From Pseudoxanthomonas broegbernensis (GTDB taxonomy: Bacteria; Pseudomonadota; Gammaproteobacteria; Xanthomonadales; Xanthomonadaceae): a stretch of 64,000 bases of DNA. The stretch spans positions 620,001 through 684,000 of the forward strand of contig NZ_JACHGU010000002.1 of NCBI RefSeq assembly GCF_014202435.1, given 5' to 3'. The notes beneath the pieces are model-generated. The model was not told where the DNA came from and did not search any database. It saw only the letters and a program-made list of their open reading frames with translations. The translations under genes and the position numbers were made by a program. Below, in pieces: positions 7,248-25,294 of the stretch. Within the stretch, counting starts at the first letter, position 1. Every line of letters starts with the position of its first letter.

Positions 7248-8780
7248 CTACAGGTCGAAGCGGATGCCCTGGGCCAGCGGCAGCGAATCGGACCAGTTGA
7301 TCGTGTTGGTCTGCCGGCGCATGTACACCTTCCACGCGTCCGAGCCGGACTCGCGGCCGCCGCCGGTGTCCTTCTCGCCGCCGAAGGCGCCGCCGATCTC
7401 CGCGCCGGAGGTGCCGATGTTGACGTTGGCGATGCCGCAGTCGCTGCCCGCCGCCGAGAGGAAGCGCTCGGCCGCCTTCAGGCTCTGGGTGAAGATCGAG
7501 GACGACAGGCCCTGCGGCACGCCGTTCTGCATCTCGATGGCCTCGTCCAGCGTGGCGTACTTCATCACGTACAGGATCGGGGCGAAGGTCTCGTGCTGCA
7601 CCACCGCGTCGCTGTTCTTCAGCCCGGCGACGATGGTCGGCAGGACGAAGTGGCCCGGGCGGTCCAGCGCGGTGCCGCCGGCGACGACGGTGCCGCCGGC
7701 GGCCTTGGCCCGTTCCACCGCCGCCAGGAACTGCTCCACCGCGCCGGCGCTGTTGAGCGGGCCCATCAGGTTGGCGGTGTCCAGCGGATCGCCGATCTTG
7801 CCCTCGACCTGCTTGTAGGCCCTGACCAGCGTGTCCAGCACCGAATCGTAGATCGACTCGTGCACGATCAGGCGGCGGGTGGAGGTGCAGCGCTGGCCGG
7901 CGGTGCCCACGGCGCCGAAGACGATGCCCGGGATCGCCAGCTTCAGGTCCGCGGACTCGTCAAGGACGATCGCGTTGTTGCCGCCCAGCTCCAGCAGGCA
8001 GCGGCCCAGGCGGCGGGCGACCTTCTGCGCCACGCCGCGGCCGACCTGGGTGGAGCCGGTGAAGCTGATCAGCGGCACGCGCGCGTCTTCCACCAGCTTC
8101 TCGGCCAGCGCGGTGCCGGCGTCGTTGACCAGGAAGAAGATGTCGGGGAAGCCGCCCTCCTTCAGCGCCGCGTTGCAGACGCCCATCGAGGCGATGGCGG
8201 TGAGCGGGGTCTTGTTCGACGGCTTCCAGATGCACACGTCGCCGCAGATCGCCGCCAGGAACGCGTTCCAGCTCCATACGGCGACCGGGAAGTTGAACGC
8301 GCTGACGATGCCGACCAGGCCCAGCGGGTGGTATTGCTCGTACATGCGGTGGCCGGGGCGCTCCGAATGCATGGTGTAGCCGTAGAGCATGCGGCTCTGG
8401 CCCACGGCGAAGTCGGCGATGTCGATCATCTCCTGCACCTCGCCATCGCCCTCGGCCTTGCTCTTGCCCATCTCCAGGGCGACCAGCGAGCCGAGCGCGT
8501 CCTTGTGCCGGCGCAGGGCCTCGCCGCACAGGCGGATGGCCTCGCCGCGGCGGGGCGCGGGAACCGTGCGCCACTCCTTGAAGGCGGCCTGGGCGCGGGC
8601 GATCACCGCCTCGTAGTCGGCCTCGGTGGTGGCCTGGACCTGGGCGATGACCTCGCCGGTGGTCGGGTTGGCCGGGCGCAGGACGCCGGCGCCGGTGGCG
8701 TCGGACCAGCGGCCGTCGCCGAGGTAGGTGCCGGGATTGGTGGCGCGCAGGCCCAGGGCCTGGAGCAGGGAAGCGGACAT
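7248..8780 (-). CDS. ALDH7-family aldehyde dehydrogenase (probable piperideine-6-carboxylate dehydrogenase)
   Basis: A 510-residue NAD-dependent aldehyde dehydrogenase of the ALDH7/antiquitin type. Motifs are [21 protein letters not shown] for NAD binding, FTGSTQVGR, the general-base glutamate in LELGGNNAI and the nucleophilic cysteine in [12 protein letters not shown]. The C-terminal [28 protein letters not shown]-type region (seen around 7330-7420) is characteristic of antiquitins, which oxidise alpha-aminoadipate semialdehyde/piperideine-6-carboxylate in lysine breakdown. No other lysine-catabolism gene is near, so the substrate is inferred from family only. The ATG at 8780 was chosen over an upstream in-frame codon because [20 protein letters not shown] is the family N-terminus. 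Confidence 0.9.
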
Positions 8781-8944
8781 GGGATCTCCTGGAGTCGGTG
8801 CGGGCGCAAGGCCCCGAGACGTGCCGCGCACCGGGAGCGGGGCGGCGTCTTCATGCGTGGCGCGATTCTAGCCCAGGGCCCGTGCATGGCCCGCGCGCAA
8901 CCGCATTGGCCGCGCCCGGGCGCCATGCGACAATCCACGGCCGT

Positions 8945-8985
8945 GGCCCCGTAGCTCAGTTGGATAGAGCGTCCCCCTCCTAAGG
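8945..8985 (+). pseudogene. tRNA-Arg(CCT), 5' half cut off by island insertion
   Basis: Bases GGCCCCG TA GCTC AGTTGGATA GAGC G TCCCC CTCCTAAGG are the acceptor, D-arm and anticodon 5' strand of a tRNA-Arg. After the anticodon loop the sequence runs into GGTGGAGGGTTAG, which cannot complete the anticodon stem and has no T-arm. Its missing 3' half is found 5.7 kb away at 14705-14752, where GGGGA pairs perfectly with TCCCC. The joined molecule would be 77 bases with CCA. Confidence 0.93.
8974..8985 (+). repeat. Left attachment site core (attL)
   Basis: The 12 bases CCCCTCCTAAGG are identical to 14705-14716 at the other end of the island. They cover the anticodon loop of the interrupted tRNA-Arg gene, a known sublocation for tyrosine-recombinase crossover in tRNA genes. 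Confidence 0.85.
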
Positions 8986-9100
8986 TGGAGGGTTAGAGAG
9001 GCTCAGAAGATCTGCAATATCTCCTTGATTTTACATGGGATATAGGCGTTGACGGTTCGACCAAGAAGAGCTATGTAAAAGTCGCCGTCTTGCAGGCTTG

Positions 9101-9118
9101 TGTCCCAAATCTGTCCCA
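9101..9118 (+). repeat. Paired TGTCCCA sites, left end of island
   Basis: TGTCCCA occurs at 9101-9107 and again at 9112-9118, an 11-base repeat distance or about one helical turn. The same pair with the same spacing and orientation is at 14627-14644. The arrangement resembles arm-type binding sites of tyrosine integrases. The role is inferred from position. Confidence 0.55.
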
Positions 9119-9242
9119 GCAAAAGAGCGTTCCCTTCGGCTGCCCCTATTCTTCAGATATCACGGGCACCTGCGAGCAGGACACCCCAGTTGCATGAGGG
9201 CGCCTCGCTTCTTGTGGGCGAGATTGAATCGTGTCAACGCAA

Positions 9243-9962
9243 TCATGCCGTGGGCGCTTGGTAGGCTTCTGCCAAGTAGCGCAAGGCGCTCTTATCCGCC
9301 TTAGTAGTGGCCAGGAATGCACGAATTGCTATCAGGCTCTTCGGCCCCAAACCCTTGATGTCCAGTAACTCCGTGTCGCTGGCCTTGTCCATCTTGGCCA
9401 AGGTATTGAAGCCAGCATCGAGCAACGCATCGCGCACTGGCTTGGAGGCAGGCAAGAGGTGGATGGTGCGCGGCAATGCGTCCTCCACTAGGTCCTTGGC
9501 GGTATGAAATGTGCGGTAGGGCGTGCCACCTGGTCCGGTGCCCTTGGCGAGTGCCCGCAACGCAGCCTCTTTCTCTTGAATCGACTCATTGCCCTCGGTG
9601 ATCAAGCGATAGGCTATGAGGAAGGCTAGGTAGTCACCGCCATCAAAAGGGATGTGGCCGATTTCTGAGGCCATGCCAACGCTATCGAGGAAGTGTTCGC
9701 CTAGATCGGGTAACCAGATGCCCTCCCACATCTCCTCAGTTATGGTTGGTGGGCCGCCCGGTGTGCGCGAGACCGTGCGTCCGTGTTGTTTTAGGACTGC
9801 TAGCGATGTTCGACGTTGCATCGTGGCACTGAACCGCCAGCCGGTGATAATGTCCTCATTGCCCGATACGGAATCGTGCACGGGCATATCGTGCCGTTGC
9901 GAATAGGGCGATGGAGTGGGCTGAGAAGAACCACCGAACAGACGGCGCAGAAAGCCAATCAC
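9243..9962 (-). CDS. Unknown island protein with C-terminal helix-hairpin-helix domain
   Basis: A 239-residue protein starting with GTG at 9962, whose first bases overlap the stop of the upstream gene (GTGA at 9962-9959). The N-terminus MIGFLRRLFGG is followed by a Pro/Ser-rich linker, then a region with GWRFSATMQRRTSLAVLKQHG that I do not recognise. The C-terminal 70 residues contain LLDAGFNTLAKM and LLDIKGLGPKSLIAIRAFL, a helix-hairpin-helix pair like that in the RNA polymerase alpha C-terminal domain or DNA repair proteins, so DNA binding is plausible. No catalytic motif is evident. Translational coupling ties it to the 287-residue protein before it. Function unknown. Confidence 0.75.
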   Translation of the reverse strand: MIGFLRRLFGGSSQPTPSPYSQRHDMPVHDSVSGNEDIITGWRFSATMQRRTSLAVLKQHGRTVSRTPGGPPTITEEMWEGIWLPDLGEHFLDSVGMASEIGHIPFDGGDYLAFLIAYRLITEGNESIQEKEAALRALAKGTGPGGTPYRTFHTAKDLVEDALPRTIHLLPASKPVRDALLDAGFNTLAKMDKASDTELLDIKGLGPKSLIAIRAFLATTKADKSALRYLAEAYQAPTA

Positions 9963-10822
9963 GAGCCGTCTCCAAAGAGCTTGTTGGCAATGGTCACCAT
10001 CTGCTGGGTTTTCTCTTCACTGAGGTCAGGGTGGGTCCAGAAATGAGTTTGGCGGCATTCGCGGATGCCTTCATCCTCAACGAAGATGGCGGCGCAGGTG
10101 GAGACGGCGACTGTCGAAATGCGGCCCGTGGATAAATACCGCAATAGCGTGTTGTGGAAGTGAGTGACGAAATTTATGTTGCACTCATTGAGCCCATAGG
10201 CCGCGTGTTGAATGGTTGACGCGGTCACGATCTGATCGGGTGGAATAACCAGGTCTTCAATAGCTACGGCCAGAATGCCCGGTAAACCCGTGGCTTCAAT
10301 CTGTGCAACACCTTGTGAGAATGGCTTGGTGGCGTTCTTTATGGAGTAAAGCCGTTTGCAGGCAACGGCGATGTCACCCGCAGGTGTGCTGACCACGATG
10401 TCGGGTTCGGCCAGCATAGAGGGAAGGCCTCGTTCATTGAGCTGCTGCCACAACTCCAGCTCCCACAACTTGTTCTTGGCCAGTGAGGAGATGCGGGAGA
10501 ATGGGTCGAGGCTGCCTCGGCCAAGGTCCGCCAAATGCCTGGCGCGGTTGGGGTCATTGGCCAAGGGGAGAGCAGCCCAAGCAATCTTGTCCAAGTGTTG
10601 TCCCCGAATTAGCGGCACCGGGTCGCTATCGCTCACGATGGTGCCGCCTTCCCAGTCATTGGCCAACTTAATGGCATGGGAAATAAGTTGGGCCAGTGAG
10701 CTTTGTGGATGCAGTGGAACCCCAGCCTCCGCATACAGGGCCTGTAAATCCTGGGCGGATTTGCGCGCATCCAAAAAGGTAGAACTCAGGCGATGAATAA
10801 TGCTTCGGTCGAGGACGCTCAT
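9959..10822 (-). CDS. Unknown island protein, possibly a degenerate PD-(D/E)xK nuclease fold
   Basis: A 287-residue protein of unknown function starting MSVLDRSIIHRLSSTF at an ATG at 10822. Around residues 115-160 it has a helix LWELELWQQL, then EPDIVVSTPAG and IAVACKRLYS. The order Glu-helix, PD strand and then xCK resembles the PD-(D/E)xK nuclease core, but the acidic residue two before the Lys is Ala. The C-terminal part contains FVTHFHNTLLRYL and a Cys pair. It starts about 200 bases after the hamB stop and is coupled to the next gene by a four-base overlap. It may be a separate defence module or a helper of Hachiman. Confidence 0.72.
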   Translation of the reverse strand: MSVLDRSIIHRLSSTFLDARKSAQDLQALYAEAGVPLHPQSSLAQLISHAIKLANDWEGGTIVSDSDPVPLIRGQHLDKIAWAALPLANDPNRARHLADLGRGSLDPFSRISSLAKNKLWELELWQQLNERGLPSMLAEPDIVVSTPAGDIAVACKRLYSIKNATKPFSQGVAQIEATGLPGILAVAIEDLVIPPDQIVTASTIQHAAYGLNECNINFVTHFHNTLLRYLSTGRISTVAVSTCAAIFVEDEGIRECRQTHFWTHPDLSEEKTQQMVTIANKLFGDGS

Positions 10823-11020
10823 GGCCCAAGTATGGAGTAGGGGGCGAGGAGGGCTGTTGCCGTCGGTGCCCTGGAAGTCCGGACGGCTCTCCAGGTTGTT
10901 GGTCGCATGCGGACACCTATCGACAGTTCAAGGAGACAGACGAAGCTGGGGCGCTAAATGGATTCGGCGCCACGGTGCCTACGGAGTTCCTTGGGCTAAC
11001 CTCGTAGAGTGATGGCATGG

Positions 11021-13183
11021 TCAATCGAAAGTCGGGACATTGCGCAGCTGCACATGCAGCCCCAATCCAGTTTTCGCATCGAGCACCAATTCTTGCTCGA
11101 ATTCAGTTAGTCCTTTGACCCGTTGAATATCGATGCGCCGCAATTGTTCCAATGCCTCATCCACTGTGTCGTGGGCAGCAAAATGTGGCCGCAGTTTTTC
11201 GGCTATCTGAAGTGGCACCCCATATTCATCGAGCGCGACTAGGCCGCTGGTTGAGAACATGTTTTCAACGGAGGCAGCATAAGCTGAGTAATCCCCTGCA
11301 GTGCCGAGCCAGTCTCTATAGATGGCTTCCTGGATGCGATGCAATGCCATCAAGTATCGAGGAAAATGAAATCCTGCCCATGTTCGAACAAAATCGAGCA
11401 CATCTTCAACAGCGCGATCCGCATCTGGAGATTCTTGCTCGGCTAGCTCTCGAACAATCAGCCCTTTTACGCTTCTGGCTTTCGCGAGACGGTTAAGTTT
11501 TAGAGCTAGTTGACTTCCGGAAACTACGCCGCCACCTATGCGCTTCTTGCCTATAAAGAATTTCCAGATGAGTTCGCAGGTGTATTTCAATTGATCATAA
11601 TCAGGAAAGCCTGTCCAACGGAGATTCGCAAAGCCCGCCGAGCCTTGGGCTTGTAGGTGCTTTGCAAGATCGTTTTGGGCTGCCGGGTCAATGCCGGCGT
11701 TGCTTCGAAGAACTTCGAAACTCAGTAAGGAGTGCGCTTCTAACGCATCAATTCGAGCTCGTGATCTGGGGGACAAGAACTCATCGTCAAGTTGGATCAA
11801 GAGCGATTCTGGAGTCGAATCATCTTGATTTACGAGCGGGATGTCGACAAATGGAAGGTCTTCTTGGGGTGGGGTATTGAAAAGAAATACGCGCCCAACA
11901 AAATGCCGCAGCATGCGTCCTGAGCGTCCCCTAATATTATTGAAGGTGAAGAAGTCGAACTTTTTCTGAGCTACACGATTGTCAAAAACGATTACGTTCT
12001 TGGCCTTAGTGTTTACTCCTTCAATTAAGGTGGATGTGCATACCAAGAAGGGAAGCTGCCCTTTGTTGAATTGACGAACTGCATATTGAGCTAGTGCACG
12101 AGGAACCTTGCCGTGATGGACGCCGATGCCGGTGAGAAAGCCCCGCGCAACCGCCCAGTCCGGGTGGTAGTTGGCAGCTAACCAGTCATATGCGCCCTTT
12201 AGTCTTCCGCCATCTGAGCCCACTCCTGCTGCGGCTAGGGCTGTTGCGACTCGTCGTGCACTTGCCGGGGAAGCGCAATAGATGAGTGTGGAGTCATTGA
12301 GTGCTCGGCATAGTTCGATCAGGGTTCCTTTGCTGTCTCCTTCACCCGTATGGACATGCACTTGCTCGGTCACAACGGTGGCATAGTCTGTGTCAACAAA
12401 CGACGATCCTGTGAGATTAGCCAGTCCGTCAGGGATCTGTTTGATGCTGGGTCCAAGCATGTAGAACTGGGCTCCAGTCTTCAGTAAGCGGTGGAGCGCC
12501 TGATTAAGGAGAAGGGCTCGATCTATGTCTTGCCGTGGGTCAAGTTTATAGAATTCGTCAATAACGAATAGGTCAATTTTTGGCAAGTTATCTACGTCTA
12601 ATACTCGTTCCTGAGTCATGACGAAGATGTTGTTTGTTTCCAGCTTCTGAGTTGGATGTGTCAATAATTTGAAATCTCGGCCGAAGCGTTCTGCCAGCCT
12701 GCGGCGTGTCTCATCAATTAAGGCAATCGTGGGCACGACAACAGCAATATTTCTGTATTTCTTTGATGCGATCAGGGCATCAATAAGAAGGCTCTTTCCA
12801 AAGCTTGTTGGGGCACTGAGAACAATGCTTTCTCCATTAAGAAGGCGTTGATATACTTCAGCTTGTTTTCGATGGAGGACAACATCAGTCATCCCATTGG
12901 GACGATGGGCTTCGAGTGCCAATTCATCCCGAACGCTTAGATCGTCATTTGCGATGTAGGGGTATAGTCCTCTGGCCCGAGCTAAGCTCTCAACGATTAC
13001 GCCACATTCACCGAATGACGCCTTGTTCTCCAATGCATACAGAATGGCAGCTTGGATGGCGATGTCATCAAACTTGCCAATGGCTGCGCGACTAACCATT
13101 GAGGCGAGTTCTTGTGCAGCCCGAAAAGGATTAGCCTCAATCGACTTTGGGTCTGATAGCGCAATAGAAGATTCGGTGCTCAT
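11021..13183 (-). CDS. hamB: Hachiman defence protein HamB, SF2 helicase
   Basis: A 720-residue superfamily 2 helicase. Walker A is APTSFGKS at residues 124-131, motif Ia is in VVVPTIALIDE, and the Walker B box is VIDEFY (DEFY at 209-212 instead of DEAH). The second RecA domain shows VCTSTLIEGVN and motif VI RGRSGRM at 418-424. A long C-terminal region of about 290 residues has no motif I can name. In Hachiman systems HamB is the DNA-sensing helicase that holds and releases the HamA nuclease. Its ATG overlaps the hamA stop (ATGA at 13183-13180), as expected for a stoichiometric complex. The AT-rich codon use marks it as foreign to the flanking chromosome. Confidence 0.88.
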   Translation of the reverse strand: MSTESSIALSDPKSIEANPFRAAQELASMVSRAAIGKFDDIAIQAAILYALENKASFGECGVIVESLARARGLYPYIANDDLSVRDELALEAHRPNGMTDVVLHRKQAEVYQRLLNGESIVLSAPTSFGKSLLIDALIASKKYRNIAVVVPTIALIDETRRRLAERFGRDFKLLTHPTQKLETNNIFVMTQERVLDVDNLPKIDLFVIDEFYKLDPRQDIDRALLLNQALHRLLKTGAQFYMLGPSIKQIPDGLANLTGSSFVDTDYATVVTEQVHVHTGEGDSKGTLIELCRALNDSTLIYCASPASARRVATALAAAGVGSDGGRLKGAYDWLAANYHPDWAVARGFLTGIGVHHGKVPRALAQYAVRQFNKGQLPFLVCTSTLIEGVNTKAKNVIVFDNRVAQKKFDFFTFNNIRGRSGRMLRHFVGRVFLFNTPPQEDLPFVDIPLVNQDDSTPESLLIQLDDEFLSPRSRARIDALEAHSLLSFEVLRSNAGIDPAAQNDLAKHLQAQGSAGFANLRWTGFPDYDQLKYTCELIWKFFIGKKRIGGGVVSGSQLALKLNRLAKARSVKGLIVRELAEQESPDADRAVEDVLDFVRTWAGFHFPRYLMALHRIQEAIYRDWLGTAGDYSAYAASVENMFSTSGLVALDEYGVPLQIAEKLRPHFAAHDTVDEALEQLRRIDIQRVKGLTEFEQELVLDAKTGLGLHVQLRNVPTFD

Positions 13184-14007
13184 AAAGCTTTCATCGCCTC
13201 CAGCTTCGCGTGAAGCTCCTCGACTAGGATCTTCTTTGTCTTCAACGGAACTAGGAATAGGTGAATTCTGTGCGGAATTGCGCTTGTGCGCGTATCAAAT
13301 CTTTCCTTGATATTTCGCATTTCCGCCACTAATGCCTCTTTATATTCTTCCGAAAAAGATTCATGCTCGGCAGTTGACTTTCCGTCATATGTTAGAAGCA
13401 CTGGGATGCAAAATGCATTGAACACTTGATCCAAAGAAGTTCTTTCATCCAAAAGTGCCATCAGCTGCTGTGCGTGAGGCCAGTGCTCGTCAACTTTATT
13501 CAGAATTGCTACGAATTCACTTCGAAGATAATCGGCCGCCAGGTGCTGTTCCAGCTCACCAGTCACGTCTCGAATTGCGGCGGATATGTCTTCATAGAAC
13601 TTAACTTCACCAAGCCAGAGCTCTAAGCCGCTCGCTGAGGGGACAACATGCACCGCATCAAATCCTTTGACGGTGTCATTCGCTGCATCCTTGTAGTAAA
13701 TCTTGGAAACTGCAGGCAGCGTGTTCATGGTCATCTTCAGGATGACATGGAGTAGTAGCTCTCCAAACTCGCCACGGTTTTTGAACTTGCCAGTGCTATA
13801 GACGGCTTTGGCCGCCTTTCTGATCATTCTTACGGCAGACTCGTGCCCAATCTCGCTATATTCACTATAGGTAAGGCAGAAATCTGGAAGTGATTCCATG
13901 AGGTAATCGGCAAGTGCTGAATGTCTCCACTTTTTCGCTTCATAGCCCGCGCATAGGCCAGTGATTGATCTATCACTGGCAAGTTCATGCAAAACGAGTT
14001 GTAACAT
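13180..14007 (-). CDS. hamA: Hachiman defence protein HamA, DUF1837 nuclease
   Basis: A 275-residue DUF1837 protein. The conserved LCAGYE and LPDFCLTYSE segments lie in the first 50 residues. The nuclease core shows GFDAVHVV with D117 and LWLGEVKFYED with E134 and K136, which fits the D-ExK catalytic set of HamA. The RGEFGELLLH helix (about 79-87) precedes it. In described systems HamA degrades DNA when freed from HamB during phage infection. It is the first gene of the island operon. The Shine-Dalgarno-like AGGGG touches the ATG directly, so translation start may be weak or slightly elsewhere. Assignment rests on these motifs and the adjacent helicase. Confidence 0.88.
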   Translation of the reverse strand: MLQLVLHELASDRSITGLCAGYEAKKWRHSALADYLMESLPDFCLTYSEYSEIGHESAVRMIRKAAKAVYSTGKFKNRGEFGELLLHVILKMTMNTLPAVSKIYYKDAANDTVKGFDAVHVVPSASGLELWLGEVKFYEDISAAIRDVTGELEQHLAADYLRSEFVAILNKVDEHWPHAQQLMALLDERTSLDQVFNAFCIPVLLTYDGKSTAEHESFSEEYKEALVAEMRNIKERFDTRTSAIPHRIHLFLVPLKTKKILVEELHAKLEAMKAL

Positions 14008-14425
14008 CCCCTGTTCTCATGGCTTGAGACGCTGGTGCCCCAAAGATTACGGTAGCAGAATTCCAGTCAGCTCCGTCATTGTCGGCATACTGTTTGTGTG
14101 TGTCGGTTGAGTGGGGGCTGGCACGACTTGAAGGTTTGTGCCGTAGTGCCTCGATCGAGGGCATGGCGAAACCCATCTATTTCTTTGCGTTATGCCACTT
14201 TGGTGGCCAAGAATCTGCATTGCTGAATACTGATGGTTGTTCGCATCTCAATCAGCGTGGACAACTGATGCGTCCAATCGCAATTCAGTGATCAAGAGGG
14301 ACCGATCTGGCTAACCCCAGGGTGCGCCGCCAGTCCAATTCCACCTGAGGGTGGCTGGGGTAGCAGCAGCACCGATCGCAATGTTCTTTGGGGTGGTGGG
14401 TGCCATGCGGTATCCTTTTCTGACT
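14008..14425. other. Non-coding stretch upstream of hamA
   Basis: About 420 bases between the hamA start and the island tRNA. It must contain the promoter of the minus-strand defence operon, but I could not pick a convincing -35/-10 pair. A 70-codon plus-strand ORF (14079-14291) has no clear ribosome site or recognisable sequence, so I did not call it. No CRISPR or retron structure was seen. Confidence 0.45.
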
Positions 14426-14502
14426 GGCCCCGTAGCTCAGCTGGATAGAGCGGTCGCCTCCTAAGCGGCAGGTCGCGCGTTCGAATCGCGCCGGGGTCAC
14501 CA
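14426..14502 (+). tRNA. tRNA-Arg (anticodon CCT), island-borne intact copy
   Basis: A complete 77-base tRNA with CCA. Parts are GGCCCCG acceptor, D-arm GCTCAGCTGGATAGAGC, anticodon stem GTCGC/GCGGC around CTCCTAA, T-arm GCGCG TTCGAAT CGCGC and 3' CGGGGTCACCA. It reads AGG codons. It differs from the split chromosomal gene in the D-loop, anticodon stem and T-stem, so it is not a simple duplicate. It lies inside the island, about 200 bases from the right end, and very likely replaces the destroyed host tRNA. Confidence 0.95.
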
Positions 14503-14626
14503 TTCCCTTTCGATGGTCTACCGGAGGGTGCCGTCGTGCTCAATAGGACGGGCGGGCCCCGCCGGGTGGAGCCTAGGGGTTGGGCCGCCGCTTGGGCTGA
14601 ACCGCACTGGGCAGGACATAGTCATT

Positions 14627-14644
14627 TGTCCCAGACGTGTCCCA
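14627..14644 (+). repeat. Paired TGTCCCA sites, right end of island
   Basis: TGTCCCA at 14627-14633 and 14638-14644, the same 11-base distance and orientation as the pair at 9101-9118. They lie about 60 bases inside the right attachment core. Confidence 0.55.
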
Positions 14645-14704
14645 GAATTGTTCGTGTATGTAGCGCTGGCCCATAAAACAAGGGGTTTCCCGCAGCGCAC
14701 GGTG

Positions 14705-14716
14705 CCCCTCCTAAGG
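14705..14716 (+). repeat. Right attachment site core (attR)
   Basis: CCCCTCCTAAGG, identical to 8974-8985. It joins the island to the 3' part of the host tRNA-Arg gene. Confidence 0.85.
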
Positions 14717-14752
14717 GGAAGGTCGCACGTTCGAATCGTGTCGGGGCTGCCA
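14705..14752 (+). pseudogene. tRNA-Arg(CCT), 3' half
   Basis: CTCCTAA GGGGA AGGTC GCACG TTCGAAT CGTGT CGGGGCT G CCA is the anticodon loop, variable loop, T-arm and acceptor 3' strand of the gene whose start is at 8945. The GGGGA arm pairs with TCCCC of the 5' half, and CGGGGCT with its GGCCCCG. Upstream, GCGCACGGTG is island sequence, so no D-arm is present here. Confidence 0.92.
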
Positions 14753-14792
14753 CTTCCCCATGTCCGGGCCGTCACCGGCGCGGGACGACTCC

Positions 14793-14873
14793 GTAGGAGC
14801 GCCCCCGGCGCGATGGGCTTTTCCGGACATGGCCGCGCGTACGCGAAGGGGGCGCGCCCAAGGGCGCTCCTAC
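14793..14873. repeat. REP-like inverted repeat, type 1
   Basis: GTAGGAGCGCCC at 14793-14804 is the exact reverse complement of GGGCGCTCCTAC at 14862-14873, which would give a large stem-loop in the tgt upstream region. Similar extragenic GTAGGAGCG...CGCTCCTAC units are common in Xanthomonadaceae. A relative with CGCAGGAGCG and GGGCGTTCCTGCG lies at about 36283-36375. Confidence 0.6.
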
Positions 14874-14879
14874 AAGTGA

Positions 14880-16055
<1,176 letters not shown>

Positions 16056-16140
16056 GGGTCCGGCGGGATCGGGACCGAAAGGCGTTAGGGGCCGGGCACA
16101 GCCGGCGACCGTCATCCCCGCTTGCCGGCCATTGCATGGT

Positions 16141-16178
16141 CCGGGCCATGCCGCCGACCGGAGTCGGCTCCTGCAGAA
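16141..16178 (-). repeat. REP-like element, type 2
   Basis: On the minus strand this reads CTGCAGGAGCCGACTCCGGTCGGCGGCATGG in two parts: a GGAGCCGAC head, then GGTCGGCGGCATGG. The same pattern (GGGAGCCGATTTCAGTCGGCGACATGG) occurs on the plus strand at 38079-38104. It lies in the 280-base gap between tgt and yajC, which has no other recognised feature. Confidence 0.5.
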
Positions 16179-16335
16179 GGGATGAGGGTGAGCGGTGGCA
16201 TGCCGAGGGCAAGGCGCCGGCGTCCGCCCGGGAACCCTGAGCGGCCAGAACGGTCGCACCCAAGGCTTGCAAAGGGCCGGGCGCGCCCCTATGGCATAAT
16301 CCCCCGCTATTTTCCGCACGACACTGGAAGACCCC

Positions 16336-16668
16336 ATGAGCCTTCTCGCCTCCCTGGCCCCGACCCCCGTCCTCGCCGCTGCGCCGCAGGGCGGCGGCCT
16401 GGGCATGCTGCTGTTCCCGGTCATCCTGATCGCGATCATGTACTTCCTGATGATCCGCCCGCAGATGAAGCGGCAGAAGGAGCACCAGGCCATGCTCGGC
16501 AAGCTCTCGCGCGGCGACGAGGTGCTGACCAACGGCGGCGTGGCCGGCGTGGTCATCGACATCGGCGACAACTTCGTGACCGTGGAAGTGGCCGACAACG
16601 TCCGCATCCGCGTGCAGCGGGCCGCCATCGCCAACGTGCTGCCCAAAGGCACCTTGAAGTCCGCCTGA
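16336..16668 (+). CDS. yajC: Sec translocon accessory protein YajC
   Basis: A 110-residue single-pass inner membrane protein, the same length as in E. coli. After a short N-terminus (MSLLASLAPTPVLAAAP) comes the helix LLFPVILIAIMYFLMIRPQMKRQKEH, the signature of YajC, and then a small cytoplasmic beta domain (GDEVLTNGGVAGVV). It associates with SecDF and SecYEG. It is followed 58 bases later by secD and expressed with it. Confidence 0.97.
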   Translation: MSLLASLAPTPVLAAAPQGGGLGMLLFPVILIAIMYFLMIRPQMKRQKEHQAMLGKLSRGDEVLTNGGVAGVVIDIGDNFVTVEVADNVRIRVQRAAIANVLPKGTLKSA

Positions 16669-16692
16669 TCCTCCCGTCCCACCGCTGAGCGT

Positions 16693-16725
16693 GGTCCCGC
16701 GAGGCGGGACCGCGCGGGGTCCCGC
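16693..16725 (+). promoter_or_regulatory. Possible bistable hairpin before secD
   Basis: GGTCCCGC occurs at 16693-16700 and 16718-16725, with its exact complement GCGGGACC between them at 16704-16711. The middle arm can pair either way, but not both at once. The downstream pairing would hide the GGGG at 16716-16719, the likely ribosome site of secD, and would end one base before the ATG context at 16727. The upstream pairing leaves it free. A switching role is inference. Confidence 0.4.
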
Positions 16726-16726
16726 A

Positions 16727-18568
16727 ATGCTCGAATTTCCCCGCTGGAAATATTTCGTCATCCTGCTGGTGCTGGTGGTCAGCGCGCTGTACTCGCTGCC
16801 CAACGTCTACCAGAACGACTATGCCGTGCAGATCACCGCCAACCGCGGCGCCAGCCTGGACGAGGCCCTGCGCGACCGCGTGGAAGGCGACCTGAAGGAA
16901 GCGGGCCTGGTGCCCAAGTCGGTGGCCATCGAGGGCGACAGCCTGATGGTGCGCCTGACCGACCCCGAGGCGCAGACCCTGGCCGCCGACACCCTGCGCA
17001 CCGGCCTGGGCGAGAACCACACCGTCGCCCTGAACCTGGCCTCCAACGTGCCGGACTGGCTGGACATGCTGGGCGCCAAGCCCATGGTCCTGGGCTTGGA
17101 CCTGCAGGGCGGCGTGCACTTCGTGCTGCAGGTCGACCAGAAGGCCGCGCTGGAGAAGCGCGTGGACGCCTACGTCGAAGACGTGCGCGTGACCCTGCGC
17201 GACAACCGCATCCGCTACACCGCGGTGGACCGCCGCGCCGACCACGGCATCGGCGTGTCGCTGGCCTCCGACGCCGACCCGGCGCGGGCCCGCGAACTGC
17301 TGACCAAGGCCATGCCGGCCCTGGGCGTGAACATCCAGGGCAACCGCCTCACCGTGGTGATCCCGGAGGCGGAGCTGACCCAGATCGCCGGCTCGGCGAT
17401 CGAGCAGAACATCACCACCCTGCGCAACCGCGTCAACCAGTTGGGCGTGGCCGAGCCGATCATCCAGCGCCAGGGCAACGACCGCATCGTGGTGCAGTTG
17501 CCGGGCGTGCAGGACACGGCCGAGGCCAAGCGCATGATCGGCGCCACCGCCACCCTGGAATACCGCGCGGTGATCGACGGCAACGCTTACGACGCCCTGT
17601 CCACCGGCCGGGTGCCGCCGGAAGCGAAGATCTACTACCGCCGCGACGGCAGCCCGGTGCTGCTGAGCAAGCGCGTGATCGTCACCGGCGACCAGATGGT
17701 GGCCGCCACCAGCGCCATCGACCAGAACGGGCAGCCGGCGGTCAGCGTGACCCTGAACAACGTCGGCGGCGACCGCATGTTCGACTTCACCAGCCAGAGC
17801 GTGGGCAAGCCGATGGCGGTGGTGTACACCGAGCGCATCCCCCAGGTGACCACGGTCAACGGCGAGGAGGTGCGCAGCTTCCGGGTCAAGGAAGAGGTCA
17901 TCTCGGTGGCCAACATCAACGGCGTGTTCGGCAAGAACTTCCAGACCACCGGCCTGGAGAAGGGCGAGGCCGACGACCTGGCCAAGCTGCTGCGCGCCGG
18001 CTCGCTGGCCGCGCCGATGGACTTCGTCGAGGAGCGCATCGTCGGCCCCAGCCTGGGCAAGGAGAACGTGGAGCGCGGCGTGACCGCGGTGCTGTACGCG
18101 TTCCTGTTCACCCTGGTGTTCTTCGGCGTGTACTACCGCATGTTTGGCGTGCTCACCGGCCTGGCGCTGCTGTTCAACCTGCTGATCGTGGTGGCGGTGA
18201 TGTCGCTGTTCGGCGCGACCATGACCCTGCCGGGCTTCGCCGGCCTGGCCCTGTCCATTGGCCTGTCGGTGGACGCCAACGTGCTGATCAACGAGCGCAT
18301 CCGCGAGGAACTGCGCGCCGGCGTGCCGCCCAAGGCGGCCATCGCCGGCGGCTACGAGAAGGCGTCCGGCACCATCCTGGACGCCAACCTCACCGCCATC
18401 CTCGCCGGCGTGGCGTTGTACGCCTTCGGCACCGGCCCGCTCAAGGGCTTCGCGGTGACCATGGTTGTCGGCATCATCGCCTCGATGTTCACCGCGATCA
18501 CCGTGTCGCGTGCGCTGGCGGTGCTGATCTACGCGCGCCGCAAGAAGCTCAAGTCCCTGGCCATCTGA
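16727..18568 (+). CDS. secD: Protein translocase subunit SecD
   Basis: SecD (613 aa, E. coli 615) uses the proton-motive force with SecF to complete export of proteins through SecYEG. The start MLEFPRWKYFVILLVL was chosen over an in-frame codon at 16691, since it matches the family and the upstream part is a hairpin region. Membrane helix 1 is followed by the periplasmic P1 domain, with GLDLQGGVHFVLQVD near residue 125. The C-terminal five helices contain LGKENVERGV and ANVLINERIREE. Confidence 0.97.
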   Translation: MLEFPRWKYFVILLVLVVSALYSLPNVYQNDYAVQITANRGASLDEALRDRVEGDLKEAGLVPKSVAIEGDSLMVRLTDPEAQTLAADTLRTGLGENHTVALNLASNVPDWLDMLGAKPMVLGLDLQGGVHFVLQVDQKAALEKRVDAYVEDVRVTLRDNRIRYTAVDRRADHGIGVSLASDADPARARELLTKAMPALGVNIQGNRLTVVIPEAELTQIAGSAIEQNITTLRNRVNQLGVAEPIIQRQGNDRIVVQLPGVQDTAEAKRMIGATATLEYRAVIDGNAYDALSTGRVPPEAKIYYRRDGSPVLLSKRVIVTGDQMVAATSAIDQNGQPAVSVTLNNVGGDRMFDFTSQSVGKPMAVVYTERIPQVTTVNGEEVRSFRVKEEVISVANINGVFGKNFQTTGLEKGEADDLAKLLRAGSLAAPMDFVEERIVGPSLGKENVERGVTAVLYAFLFTLVFFGVYYRMFGVLTGLALLFNLLIVVAVMSLFGATMTLPGFAGLALSIGLSVDANVLINERIREELRAGVPPKAAIAGGYEKASGTILDANLTAILAGVALYAFGTGPLKGFAVTMVVGIIASMFTAITVSRALAVLIYARRKKLKSLAI

Positions 18569-18584
18569 GGGAAGGAACCAGAAC

Positions 18585-19550
18585 ATGAAGATCTTTCCCC
18601 TGACCCTGATCCCCCACGACCCGCGCATCGGCTTCATGAGGATGCGCTGGGTGGCGATGGCCGCCGCGGCGCTGCTGTGCGTCGCCTCGGTCGCCGGCAT
18701 CGCCATCCATGGCTTCAACTACGCACTGGACTTCACCGGCGGCACCGTGGTGGAGGTCCGCTTCGAGCATTCGGCCAGCGTCGACGACGTGCGCGAGCGC
18801 GTCGCCCACGCCGGCTACGAAGGCGCGCAGGTGCAGAACTTCGGCAGCGGCAGCGACCTGCTGGTGCGCCTGCAGCCGCGCGATGGCCAGACCACCACCG
18901 ATGCCAACAACCGCACCGCCCAGGAAGTGATGGCCGCGGTGGACACGCCGGAGAACAGGGCCACCTTGCTGCGCACCGAGTTCGTCGGTCCGCAGGTGGG
19001 CAAGGAACTGGCGATGAACGGCCTGTACGCGGCGATCTTCGTGGTGGTCGGCTTCCTGATCTACATCGGCTTCCGCTTCGAGTTCAAGTTCGCCGTGTCG
19101 GCCACGCTGACCACGATGTTCGACGTGCTGGTGGTGGCCGGCTACTTCGCCTGGAGCGGACGCGAGTTCGACCTGACCGTGCTGGCCGGCCTGCTGTCGG
19201 TGATGGGCTTCTCGATCAACGACACCATCGTGGTGTTCGACCGCGTGCGCGAGAACTTCCGCAGCCTGCGGGCGGACCCGGACGAGGTGTTCGACCGCTC
19301 CATCAACCAGACCCTGTCGCGCACCATCATCACCTCGGTGGTGTTCTTCCTGTCGGTGCTGGCGCTGTACCTGTACGGCGGCGGCTCGCTGGAAGGGCTG
19401 GCGCTGAGCCAGATGATCGGCGCGGTGATCGGCACCCTGTCCTCGATCTTCATCGCCTGCCCGCTGCTGACCCTGGGCTTCCTGAAGGTCACCAAGCAGG
19501 ACCTGCTGCCCAAGGCCAAGGACGAGGCCGCGCTGGCCCGCCGGCCGTAA
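18585..19550 (+). CDS. secF: Protein translocase subunit SecF
   Basis: SecF (321 aa, E. coli 323) begins MKIFPLTLIPHDPRIGFMRMRW and has the family motif FTGGTVVEVRF in its periplasmic part. Six membrane helices are expected, with VGPQVGKEL, SINDTIVVFDRVREN and RTIITS seen in the C-terminal half. It starts 16 bases after the secD stop. A strong terminator follows, ending the tgt-yajC-secDF unit. Confidence 0.97.
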   Translation: MKIFPLTLIPHDPRIGFMRMRWVAMAAAALLCVASVAGIAIHGFNYALDFTGGTVVEVRFEHSASVDDVRERVAHAGYEGAQVQNFGSGSDLLVRLQPRDGQTTTDANNRTAQEVMAAVDTPENRATLLRTEFVGPQVGKELAMNGLYAAIFVVVGFLIYIGFRFEFKFAVSATLTTMFDVLVVAGYFAWSGREFDLTVLAGLLSVMGFSINDTIVVFDRVRENFRSLRADPDEVFDRSINQTLSRTIITSVVFFLSVLALYLYGGGSLEGLALSQMIGAVIGTLSSIFIACPLLTLGFLKVTKQDLLPKAKDEAALARRP

Positions 19551-19574
19551 GGCCCGCGTCGCGGCGCAAACGCA

Positions 19575-19603
19575 GAAGCCGCCCTCGGGGCGGCTTCTTC
19601 TTT
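19575..19603 (+). terminator. Rho-independent terminator after secF
   Basis: Perfect 10-base stem GAAGCCGCCC / GGGCGGCTTC with loop TCG, followed by TTCTTT. It is placed 25 bases downstream of the secF stop. Confidence 0.85.
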
Positions 19604-19761
19604 GGGCCCCTCGCTGCCGCGATGGCGGACGGTGGATGCCTTCCGAGGTACACGCAGCCGAAGTACGCGCAGCCCGCCGCCGCCGCCGTTGCCGTTCGAT
19701 GGGGGTCGGCGCGGGGTATGGGCCGCGCGGAGGGCGCCTTGCGGCGCTCTCCTGGGAGGGC

Positions 19762-20586
19762 TCAGTTGAACGCGGCGGCGTAGCCGGTGTTGACCACCAG
19801 TTTTTGCAGCTCGTCGGCGACCTTGACGTTGGCGGCGATGATCTGCCGCGCCTCGGGGCCGCGCTCGTCCAGGCGCGGGGTGCCCGCGCCGCGGAAATCG
19901 CAGACCCGGCCGCCGGCCTCGCGCACCAGCAGCACGCCGGCGGCGATGTCCCACGCCTTCAGCCCGGCCTCGAAGTAGGCGTCCAGGCGGCCGCAGGCCA
20001 CGTAGGCCAGGTCCAGCGCGGCCGAGCCGGTGCGGCGCACGTCCTCGGCCTGCACCAGCAGCGAATCCATGCACTTGAGCTGGGCGCTCGCGCGGGCGCG
20101 CTCGCGCGGCGGGAAGCCGGTGCCGACCACGGTGCCGGCCAGGTCCTTGCGGTCCGCGACGCGGATGCGCTTGTCGTTGAGCACCGCGCCGCTGCCGCGG
20201 CTGGCGGTGAACAGTTCGTTGCGCAGCGGGTCGAAGATCACCGCGTCGATCGGCTCGCCGTTGTCGACCAGGGCGATGGAGACGCAGTAGTGCGGGAACC
20301 CGCGCAGGTAGTTGCTGGTGCCGTCCAGCGGGTCGATCACCCACTGGAAACGGCTCTGGCGGCCCGGCTGGTGGCCGCCTTCCTCGCCGAGCACGCCGTA
20401 CTCGGGATAGGCGCGGCGCAGTTCCTTCACGATCGCCTTCTCCGCATCCGCGTCGACCTCGCTGGCGTAGTCCATGCGCTGCTTCTGGACCACGTTGAGC
20501 GCATCGAGGCGGTTGATGCTGCGTAGCAGGACATTGCCGCCTAGGCGGGCGGCCTTGACCATGACGTTGACGGCGGGCTTGAGCAT
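19762..20586 (-). CDS. suhB: Inositol-1-monophosphatase family protein SuhB
   Basis: A 274-residue Mg-dependent phosphatase of the IMPase family, close to E. coli SuhB (267 aa). Metal-binding motifs are visible: LGEEGG, the [15 protein letters not shown] box near residues 80-95 and the C-terminal [16 protein letters not shown]. Besides inositol phosphate hydrolysis, E. coli SuhB takes part in ribosomal RNA antitermination with the Nus factors. The ATG at 20586 ([18 protein letters not shown]) fits the family start. It is divergent from trmJ with 94 bases between. Confidence 0.94.
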
Positions 20587-20680
20587 GGCGAAGGTTCCCG
20601 GAAAGGGCAGGGGGAGGCGCGGACGAAGGAAAAGAGCGGACCGGCGCGCAAGGCCGGCCGCGCAGTTTACCATTTGCGCC

Positions 20681-21472
20681 ATGTCCGCTTCCGCATCGCA
20701 CGGCCCGGCAGGCCGCATCCGCATCGTCCTGGTCGGCACCCAGCATCCCGGCAACATCGGCGCGGCCGCGCGCGCGATGAAGACCATGGGCTTGTCGAGG
20801 CTGGTCCTGGTGGCGCCGGAGAAGCCGCTGGACGAAGCCGCCTACCGGCGTTCGGCCGGCGCCGAGGACGTGCTGGGCCAGGCGCCGGTCCTCGCCACCC
20901 TGGCCGAGGCGGTGGCCGACTGCCGCCTGGTGCTGGGCTGCACCGCGCGCAGCCGCCGGGTGCGGCTGGAGGAACTGGAGCCGTCCGCGGCCGCGGGCCG
21001 CTTGCTGGACCTGGCCGCCGAGGGGCCGGTGGCGCTGGTGTTTGGGCGCGAGCGCACCGGGCTGACCAACGAGGAACTGCAGTTGTGCCATGCCTCGGTC
21101 CACATCGCCTCGGACCCGGAGTTCAGCTCGCTCAACCTGGCCGCGGCGGTGCAGGTGCTGGCCTACGAGGTCCGGCGCGCGCTGCTGGGGGCGGCGCCGG
21201 CGCAGGCGCCATCGCCGCGAAGCGACGAGCAGCCGGCGACCCACGAGCAGGTGGAGGGCTTCTTCGCCCAGCTCGCCGACACCCTTGACGCGATCGACTT
21301 CCACAAGGGGCGCGCGCCGGACTCGGCCATGCGCAAGCTGCGCCGGTTGTTCCTGCGCACCGACCTGACCGTGCACGAGGTGCGCCTGCTGCGCGGCGTG
21401 CTGGCCGATGCGCAGCGCATGGCGCGGCTGGCCCGGGAGGCCGGGAACGCACATCCGCCGCTGTCCCCCTGA
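20681..21472 (+). CDS. trmJ: tRNA (cytidine/uridine-2'-O-)-methyltransferase TrmJ
   Basis: A 263-residue SPOUT-class methyltransferase that 2'-O-methylates position 32 in the anticodon loop of several tRNAs. The N-terminal motif [20 protein letters not shown], the knot segment [13 protein letters not shown] and [15 protein letters not shown] are diagnostic. The C-terminal helical extension ([24 protein letters not shown]) distinguishes TrmJ from shorter TrmL. The start was set at the ATG at 20681, as the in-frame upstream region is antisense to suhB. Confidence 0.95.
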
Positions 21473-21498
21473 ACGGCTTTCCGCTAGGCTTCGCGGAT

Positions 21499-22449
21499 AT
21501 GGAACGGGTTGGATTTTCGTCCGGCGTGCGCAGGGGTATCCAGGCCGTATGCTGGGTGCTGCTGGCCGCCCTCTTGCCGATGGCGCCGCATGCGCGGGCG
21601 TCCGAGGACTCGCACGTGCTGGTGCTGGGACGGATCAGCGACGATCCCCGCGCCCACTACGACCAGCTCAAGGCCCTGCTCGATTACGTGGTGCCGCGCA
21701 TGCGCGAGGTGGGCATCACCGAAGGGCGGGTGCTGATGGCGCGCGACGCCCAGCAGATGGCCAGCTACCTGCGCCGCGGCCGGGTCGACTGGGTGACCGA
21801 GACCGCCAGCACCGCGGTGCAGTTGCAGCAGCGCGCCGACGCCCGGCTGCTGCTGCTGACCGAGCGCAACGGCGTCAGCCGGTACCGCACGGTGTTCTTC
21901 GCCCGCCGCGAAAGCCCGGTGCAAGACCTGGCCGGCCTGCGCGGCCACACCCTGGCGCTGCAGAGCATCGCCTCCACCAGCGCCTACCAGGTGCCCATGA
22001 TCACCCTGCTCGAGGCGGGGCTCACGCCCGAGATCCTGCTCGGCCCCGGCGACCAGCCCGCGGCCGACCGGGTGGGCTACGTGTTCGCCCGCTCGGAACT
22101 GAACATCTCGGCATGGGTGCACAAGCGCATGGTCGACGCCGGCGCGATCAGCGACCTGGACTGGAACGACCCGGAGCGGGTGCCGCCCGCGTTCAAGCCC
22201 TTCCTGAAGGTCATCCACCAGACGCCCACCTACCCGCGGGCGCTGGAACTGGTGCGCGCCGACATGCCCGTGGAGGTGGAGGCGCGCCTGCGCGAGGTGC
22301 TCCTGCAGGCGTCCCGGGACCCGGCCGCCGCGCCGGCGCTGCGCCTGTTCTTCAACACCTCGCGCTTCCTGCCGCTGGACGATGAGGTCCGGCGTTCGCT
22401 GGCGGGCCTGCGCGAAGGCGCCGCACGCGTGCACGCGGAGGTCGAATGA
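21499..22449 (+). CDS. PhnD-like periplasmic substrate-binding protein
   Basis: A 316-residue protein with an N-terminal signal sequence (AVCWVLLAALLPMAPHARAS, cleavage likely after ARA). It has the PhnD / phosphate-phosphonate binding fold: VLGRISDDPRAHYDQLKALLDYV, then a Thr/Ser-rich loop and GHTLALQSIASTSAYQVP near residue 150. No ABC permease or ATPase lies nearby. Its stop overlaps the ATG of the GGDEF-EAL gene (ATGA at 22446-22449), so it likely acts as the periplasmic sensor part of a c-di-GMP signalling pair rather than in uptake. That role is inferred from context. Confidence 0.85.
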   Translation: MERVGFSSGVRRGIQAVCWVLLAALLPMAPHARASEDSHVLVLGRISDDPRAHYDQLKALLDYVVPRMREVGITEGRVLMARDAQQMASYLRRGRVDWVTETASTAVQLQQRADARLLLLTERNGVSRYRTVFFARRESPVQDLAGLRGHTLALQSIASTSAYQVPMITLLEAGLTPEILLGPGDQPAADRVGYVFARSELNISAWVHKRMVDAGAISDLDWNDPERVPPAFKPFLKVIHQTPTYPRALELVRADMPVEVEARLREVLLQASRDPAAAPALRLFFNTSRFLPLDDEVRRSLAGLREGAARVHAEVE

Positions 22450-24572: not shown

Positions 24573-24637
24573 CGTAACGGCGCCGGGATTCGCGGCTTTC
24601 GGGCGGGGCCGCCGCCCTGTCGTTGCAGGGGTGCCGC

Positions 24638-25294
24638 TCAGCCCGGCCGCAAGCGCTGCCACGCGTGCGCGGCCAGCTCGGCGAGCTGCTCGGACAGCAG
24701 GCCCATCGCCAGCAGGCCGGCGGCGGTGGCGATCCATAGCGCCAGCAGCAGCGCGCCGTCGCGCTCGATCAACGCCAGCGCATAGAGCAGCAGCACGCCA
24801 GCGAACAGGTAGTTGGTCATCGGCAGGGGCAGGGCGAGCAGGATGCCAAGCAGCACCAGCAGCAGCCCGGTGAACGCGTTGGCGAGGCGGCTGCCGGTCA
24901 ACCGCGGCAGGCGGGGCCGCACCAGGTGTTCCAGCCGCGCCAGCCACGGTGCGATGCGGTTGCAGAAGCGGGCCATGGTGCGCCGCCGCGGTCCGCGCCG
25001 GCCGATGAAGCCCGGCAGCCAGGGACGCGCCAGGCCGACCAGCAACTGCAGGCCGATCAGGATCACCAGCGGCCCGCCCACCGCGCCGCCGACGCCGGGG
25101 ATGGGAACGAAGCCCGGCAGGATCGACACGAACAGGAACATCCCGAACGCGCTGTGGCGCAGGCCGGCCAGCAGGCTGTCCAGGTCCAGCAGCTCGTCCG
25201 GGTCGCCCTGGGCGAAGGTGCCCAGCAGGCGCGCGATGCCGTTGCCCGCCGGTGCGCCGGCAGGCCGGGAAGCGGGTTCAGACGGCGAGTTCAT
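24638..25294 (-). CDS. ExoD-family membrane protein
   Basis: A 218-residue protein starting MNSPSEPASRPAGAPAG. It has a soluble N-terminal part with DPDELLDLDSLLAGLRHSAFG, then hydrophobic segments including FVSILPGFVPIPGVG and ITNYLF-like PMTNYLFAGVLLL. The PGxPxxG-type helix and overall plan fit the ExoD family, first described in rhizobial exopolysaccharide synthesis, whose biochemical role is unclear. Its start overlaps the end of the preceding CNNM gene by 17 bases, so the two form one unit. Confidence 0.8.
   Translation of the reverse strand: MNSPSEPASRPAGAPAGNGIARLLGTFAQGDPDELLDLDSLLAGLRHSAFGMFLFVSILPGFVPIPGVGGAVGGPLVILIGLQLLVGLARPWLPGFIGRRGPRRRTMARFCNRIAPWLARLEHLVRPRLPRLTGSRLANAFTGLLLVLLGILLALPLPMTNYLFAGVLLLYALALIERDGALLLALWIATAAGLLAMGLLSEQLAELAAHAWQRLRPG

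Follow-up and report, generated by a model that had tools for sequence, protein, structure and literature searches.

A defence island of about 5.7 kb divides the host tRNA-Arg(CCT) gene of Pseudoxanthomonas broegbernensis within its anticodon loop, and very probably it entered by tRNA-dependent integration, bringing its own replacement tRNA-Arg(CCT). In this mode of entry a tyrosine integrase would recombine a short core at the island's attachment site (attP) with the anticodon-loop region of the host gene (attB); since only about 12 bp are common to attP and attB, the host gene would be destroyed on integration, and the island would compensate with its own complete tRNA-Arg(CCT) near attP. 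The window analyzed here is the whole stretch of 64,000 nucleotides, and the three features on which the argument turns are as follows.

8945..8985, plus strand: displaced 5' half of the host tRNA-Arg(CCT) gene (attL), with the core at 8974-8985; read from the sequence, no gene called by ARAGORN.
14705..14752, plus strand: displaced 3' half of the host tRNA-Arg(CCT) gene (attR), with the core at 14705-14716; read from the sequence, no gene called by ARAGORN.
14426..14502, plus strand: complete replacement tRNA-Arg(CCT), with anticodon stem GTCGC/GCGGC; ARAGORN, and Rfam at 62.5 bits.

The two halves have in common a 12-bp core, CCCCTCCTAAGG, which spans the anticodon loop. Joining the flanks at this core in a script gave a single 77-base sequence, called as tRNA-Arg(CCT), with an anticodon stem of TCCCC/GGGGA, and neither ARAGORN nor Rfam called a tRNA at either of the two present junctions. 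A first-pass annotation of the window had proposed an insertion into the anticodon loop of a tRNA-Arg gene, halves that rejoin to a tRNA of this length and stem, and junctions that are both non-functional, and each of these proposals is borne out; its remark that most islands, unlike this one, rebuild the tRNA at a junction also holds, but the same arrangement is already known in prophages. Ordinary genes flank the split tRNA, an aldehyde dehydrogenase on the left (7248-8831) and tgt on the right (14940-16055), and the proportion of G and C (GC) is about 0.70 outside the island against 0.45-0.59 inside. The motif TGTCCCA-N3..8-TGTCCCA occurs exactly twice in the 64 kb, once inside each end of the island, where 0.01 occurrences would be expected.

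9101..9118, plus strand: left paired repeat, TGTCCCA..TGTCCCA; its start lies 127 bp beyond the first core base; motif search.
14627..14644, plus strand: right paired repeat; its end lies about 61 bp ahead of the first core base; motif search.

Given that the paired motif is found only inside both ends, and given the drop in GC, the split arrangement is not due to chance; we infer that the paired repeats are integrase arm sites.

Between the carried tRNA and the right core lie 202 bp. Compared with the rejoined host tRNA, the carried tRNA has 12 differences in 77 positions, five of them within the ten stem positions. RF00005 gave 44 matches in the genome, of which ARAGORN typed 43 (in 30 loci, the window and further stretches), the sole CCT among them being the gene at 14426-14502; the one remaining match is weak (34 bits, L064) and was not called a tRNA by ARAGORN, and a tRNA pattern search returned just the split half and the carried gene. 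The divergent tRNA of the same specificity that the first-pass annotation had placed inside the island is complete, and the gene count that it suggested turned up no second, uninterrupted CCT gene among the matches typed. Trans-splicing of the two halves was set aside, the junctions being dead and a full tRNA being present. An antisense open reading frame (ORF; 14292-14543, minus strand) lies over the carried tRNA and reads DPGAIRTRDLPLRR..PAELRG; it is probably spurious, the product of translating the tRNA backwards.

The inner tRNA could also be viewed as the gene rebuilt at the junction of a canonical tRNA-site island, perhaps through two tandem insertions, and this very gene is used by canonical islands in five genomes of the family, where a split 5' half is accompanied by a rebuilt full tRNA: L100 (G049), L101 (G308), L102/L103 (G389), L104/L105 (G128, on two contigs) and L107/L108 (G139). 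Such an explanation is at odds with the 202 bp that separate the inner tRNA from the right core, with its 12 differences from the host tRNA and with the death of both junctions; the same order moreover recurs with distinct tRNAs in other islands, and we consider a canonical island here exceedingly improbable. The island of G049 has a paired repeat like that of the tRNA-replacing islands, 139 bp from its attL core. Nor is the carried tRNA at all likely to be there to serve codon needs of the island itself. The GC of the island differs from that of the host, and its codon use differs with it; yet its four genes contain only 3 AGG and 13 AGA in 1,525 codons, against 48 AGG (in 22 of 27 ORFs) and 14 AGA among 12,798 codons of host-like ORFs in the window, these being chosen by base composition, a heuristic. 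The anticodon of the carried tRNA is also that of the split gene in every relative found, in searches that were made for that tRNA.

The island encodes four proteins.

13180..14007, minus strand: HamA (DUF1837) of Hachiman; PF08878, E 1.4e-57; PADLOC PDLC00166, E 2e-127.
11021..13183, minus strand: HamB, the DEAD-box helicase of Hachiman; PADLOC PDLC00180, E 1.4e-241; Pfam DEAD and Helicase_C.
9243..9962, minus strand: 239-aa protein with a weak C-terminal helix-hairpin-helix match below the curated Pfam cut-offs; no PADLOC match.
9959..10822, minus strand: 287-aa protein without a family in Pfam or PADLOC.

By their sequences, the adjacent and nearly full-length hamA and hamB are a Hachiman pair. 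No phage family was found among the four proteins with Pfam and PADLOC. The two adjacent genes beside Hachiman (9243-9962 and 9959-10822) are candidates for accessory or separate defence genes.

The same plan is found elsewhere in the Xanthomonadaceae. At least 17 of 395 family genomes have it, the window's included, a count that is a lower bound because cases were found through integrase similarity and through odd scores in a search with the DNA of the island's right end; five further genomes (G045, G105, G271, G314 and G380) gave contig fragments or no clear case. There are six kinds of carried tRNA, and both displaced halves were seen in 16 genomes, on different contigs in six of these (G163, G359, G318, G247, G376 and G019). 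P. koreensis KCTC 12208 (G004; L097) and P. suwonensis J47 (G015; L098) both present the order 5' half, paired repeat, cargo, tyrosine integrase, tRNA-Arg(CCT), paired repeat, 3' half; the cargo of the former is a methylase and a Res-like helicase (Pfam N6_N4_Mtase and ResIII), and similar ORFs occur in the latter. Lysobacter arseniciresistens ZS79 has, in that same order, an integrase, a third carried tRNA, a repeat and the 3' half, with attL on another contig, and an Mrr-type endonuclease gene lies in its locus. The geometry of the repeats is closely shared: measured from the first base of the left core, the left repeat begins at 127 bp in the window and at 128, 128 and 128 bp in P. koreensis, P. 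suwonensis and L. arseniciresistens, and relative to the first base of the right core, the right repeat ends 61 bp short in the window and 50, 50 and 59 bp short in those three. A slightly looser form of the repeat occurs exactly twice in L053 and twice in L054. The clade integrase is present in L053, L054, L099 and L113-L118.

Relatives of this integrase were found at 1e-20 in 16 of the 395 genomes, 12 of them with a tRNA-Arg(CCT) alongside; the other four (35-37% identity) have no adjacent tRNA-Arg(CCT). Within these 12, one genus (g17) accounts for nine; all nine carry the same tRNA (lineage D), have the order integrase, tRNA, 3' half and show the split 5' half, and G376 is likewise of lineage D. 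The TGTCCCA paired repeat was not found in the D and E loci, which therefore represent sister designs. The D cargo of the one genome examined in part (G384) includes CBASS genes (patatin, DncV-like cyclase, E1-E2), QatA with a QueC-like protein, RHS proteins, a zeta-toxin domain and a type IV secretion system coupling protein. Lineage E is represented by G319 (L231 2279-5400), where an island of about 3 kb holds a cytosine methylase, an HNH protein, an HTH_17 protein and its own tRNA-Arg(CCT), with no integrase seen among its ORFs; since the core common to both ends extends further on the 3' side, a different recombinase was probably used. G019 stands for lineage F, with a DUF6161 gene, the sole gene looked at, at the locus. 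In G221 a D-type tRNA lies 3.3 kb from the 3' half, and neither an integrase match nor a 5' half was found; the carried tRNA there (L230 7866-12612) stands among three copies of one transposase ORF. The integrase matches of G267 and G392 contain an internal stop.

With the right-end DNA of the window as query against the 395 genomes, a search in which few candidates per genome were scored, the matches listed from outside the window's own genome cover only the tRNA part (query 203-317 of 505), and those listed from phage and plasmid collections are mostly tRNA matches, with one helicase match. An integrase profile run on 360 genomes of the class gave no match at 1e-40, a strict threshold, in a set without a positive control, a result that carries no weight on its own. 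All 42 integrase loci from IMG/VR show at most 32% identity, and the phage relatives listed (20 of 53) are likewise at most 32% identical to the clade integrases, over partial length. More such islands could be found by looking for a split tRNA gene together with a tRNA of the same isotype near one junction.

In relatives the carried tRNA is conserved where its surroundings are not. Across nine D genomes, none of the 77 columns of the carried tRNA varies, whereas variation affects 33 of 104 columns of the spacer that leads to the core, 17 of the 117 bases upstream and 208 of 614 aligned columns of integrase DNA (600 bases); in the Pseudoxanthomonas pair, identity is 77/77 in the carried tRNA, 72/85 in the spacer and 31/44 in the 44 bases upstream. 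The displaced 5' halves have been altered in some D genomes, with two changes in G347, loop changes in G376 and an insertion beside the core in G267. G347 and G267 (2 and 3 contigs, respectively) each have another near full-length Arg match that was typed, as CCG, and others left untyped.

All five pairs of the anticodon stem are kept in the carried tRNAs, with one G-U in the window, although the sequences differ: GTCGC/GCGGC in the window, ACGCC/GGCGT in B, CACCC/GGGTG in C and E, CGTCC/GGACG in D and CATCC/GGATG in F, against TCCCC/GGGGA in the host. In B, four of the eight differences between the carried and the rejoined host tRNA fall in the stem. Host genes mostly have CCC adjoining the loop: a CCC-stem pattern matched 368 family genomes and an any-stem pattern 374, the six that matched only the looser form including five of one genus. 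Lineages A, B, D and F have bases other than CCC/GGG at stem positions 29-31, while C and E have CCC/GGG there; because the latter two keep CCC next to the loop, the stem sequences are no more than suggestive of carried tRNAs having been re-paired so as to avoid their own integrase. The re-paired stems nonetheless make for a direct prediction on integrase specificity and self-protection. One seemingly uninterrupted host tRNA-Arg(CCT), in L135 (G330), has one A missing from the anticodon loop (CTCCTAGGGG), which may be a sequencing error or a real lesion.

Comparison with empty sites, as the first-pass annotation had advised, was favorable for the left flank and for the tRNA itself. Within the genus, 14 of 17 genomes have one intact tRNA-Arg(CCT), and the gene is split in the window's genome, G004 and G015. 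By BLAST the left flank of the window reaches the core in L053, L055, L056, L065 and L066 with 83-88% identity, and in L054 the match is broken into two segments, of 91% and 86% identity, and extends to the core in the second; by tblastn, an aldehyde dehydrogenase adjoins the tRNA in 11 of the 12 intact loci tested, L042 being the exception. In L042 (G009), where the tRNA is intact and this usual neighbor is missing, the sequence upstream is similar to the one that precedes the rebuilt tRNA in L107, which suggests that G009 carries a canonical island. For G015, chromosomal DNA past the island aligns for more than 1 kb with the sequence downstream of the tRNA in eight relatives whose gene is intact (on the thrA side: L055, L056 and L065); with both chromosome flanks matching intact relatives, the insertion in that genome is clean on both sides.

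Several observations weigh against entry of the window island by tRNA-dependent integration, or against what we take to follow from it, and the first is the right flank of the window. The stretch 14753-26000 is without a match at any of the 14 loci of the genus that were compared, of which 12 have an intact gene; for eight of these 12 the comparison reached only about 1.4 kb past the tRNA. The genes thrA, thrC and trpB, which follow the tRNA in relatives, are missing from the window, and the genome differs here, likely because it was rearranged at or near the 3' end of the tRNA gene. Our confidence in tRNA-dependent integration was for this reason lowered slightly, and it stays high. It could be argued that the halves were separated partly by such a rearrangement of the chromosome rather than by simple insertion, since the window's right flank is unmatched and the tRNA neighbors of its relatives are not in it; the core, the paired repeats with the geometry of bona fide islands and the GC boundary fit insertion, however, and the right flank is already variable among relatives with an intact gene (the thrA side in several, the trpB side in L066), so that we judge a part played by rearrangement in the split to be unlikely.

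A second group of observations concerns the carried tRNA itself. The list of tRNAs for this genome is not quite complete, as no typed gene is an Ile(GAT), Ala(TGC) or Leu(CAA), and as one Arg(CCG) called by ARAGORN (L007 903-979) lies outside the 44 RF00005 matches. A tRNA-Arg(TCT) is present in the genome; such a tRNA could read AGG by wobble, and dependence of the host on the carried gene is for that reason offered as a hypothesis. A promoter scan found no sigma-70 consensus before the carried tRNA; the feature that lies there is the following.

14404..14416, no strand assigned: possible relic of an integrase start (CAT, read on the minus strand) with a TATCCT box, upstream of the carried tRNA; weak and inferred.

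A similar layout from integrase start to tRNA is seen in L053, L099 and L113, although the TATCCT box stands at varying distances and is absent within 60 nt in L054 and in lineage E.

The third concerns the integrase. Pfam and PADLOC show none among the four island genes, tblastn of three clade integrases against the island gave a best E of 0.15, and the genome contains no relative of the clade integrase at 1e-20; mobility of the window copy is accordingly unsupported. These results would also fit a decayed, immobile remnant whose tRNA owes its retention solely to the broken host gene, an account that is compatible with the origin proposed here and that we regard as a serious possibility, if a somewhat less than even one. 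Decay of this kind has parallels in G221, where the carried tRNA persists amid transposases with no integrase match, and in the interrupted integrase matches of G267 and G392; on the other side, the paired repeats, the core and the Hachiman genes of the window look intact, and islands without an integrase could be moved in trans. Under tRNA-dependent integration, an integrase of the clade seen in P. koreensis and L. arseniciresistens may have inserted the window island, and would later have been lost or have always acted in trans.

The carried tRNA, if expressed and charged as we suppose, would now make inexact deletion of the Hachiman cargo costly. The first-pass annotation had likened this to addiction, for which toxin-antitoxin systems would be the wrong model: were the island excised exactly, the host gene would be whole again, and hence the tRNA disappears only when the island is lost inexactly. 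That route may matter here because no clade integrase was found in the genome, and restricted to inexact deletion the idea of addiction seems a reasonable one. It would offer a simple route by which defence genes become hard to lose. Going further, the tRNA-Arg(CCT) anticodon-loop site might have been taken more than once, independently, by defence islands whose re-paired tRNAs avoid the core and thereby targeting by the islands' own integrase, with the host unable to drop those islands that have no integrase (the window and lineage E) and their defence genes fixed as a result; we put this forward tentatively, as a rather doubtful extension.

Within open-licence PMC papers, we found neither a defence island described as bringing a replacement tRNA nor any account of this site in the Xanthomonadaceae, and tRNA-dependent integration by defence islands of the family appears to be new within that literature. 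The tRNA-gene islands of Islander (PMC4383910) resemble the window island in their integration into tRNA genes, with an anticodon-loop subsite, and usually have an integrase on board; they are defined by restoration of the tRNA, whereas the window island restores none at either junction, and island finders that expect a restored tRNA and one fragment would misdescribe islands of this kind. Substitution of a host tRNA by an element-borne tRNA is mentioned for prophages of Sinorhizobium meliloti (PMC11476347), and phiLM21-like prophages are stated not to show it (PMC12429752); unlike the window island, these S. meliloti elements are prophages, and in Alphaproteobacteria. Lj965 of Lactobacillus johnsonii, whose junction is not rebuilt and which contains a cognate tRNA (as cited in PMC10865867), is again a prophage. 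Hachiman, the known defence system of the window island, has both its genes (HamA/HamB) present, but as cargo only, unrelated to retention of the island.

The closest description is that of tRNA-dependent lysogeny, defined and genetically proven in mycobacteriophages in 2024, with its spread elsewhere left as a question (Guerrero-Bustamante and Hatfull, PMC10865867); the contrast drawn there between tRNA-rebuilding and tRNA-replacing phages is similar to the two solutions seen at the tRNA-Arg(CCT) site. The islands of the Xanthomonadaceae share with the actinobacteriophage system a tyrosine integrase, a short core (about 10 bp), a junction that is not rebuilt, an element tRNA of the same isotype, putative pairs of arm-type sites and tRNA-rebuilding relatives. 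They differ from it in carrying defence and other cargo, in being known from sequence where the phages have genetic proof, and in having the tRNA beside attP in all islands except G221; the window copy differs further in that no integrase was found. Judged by its sequence, the window holds an island without a recognizable integrase that is built like islands using tRNA-dependent integration, and in the Xanthomonadaceae this plan is found on carriers of phage defence instead of on phages.

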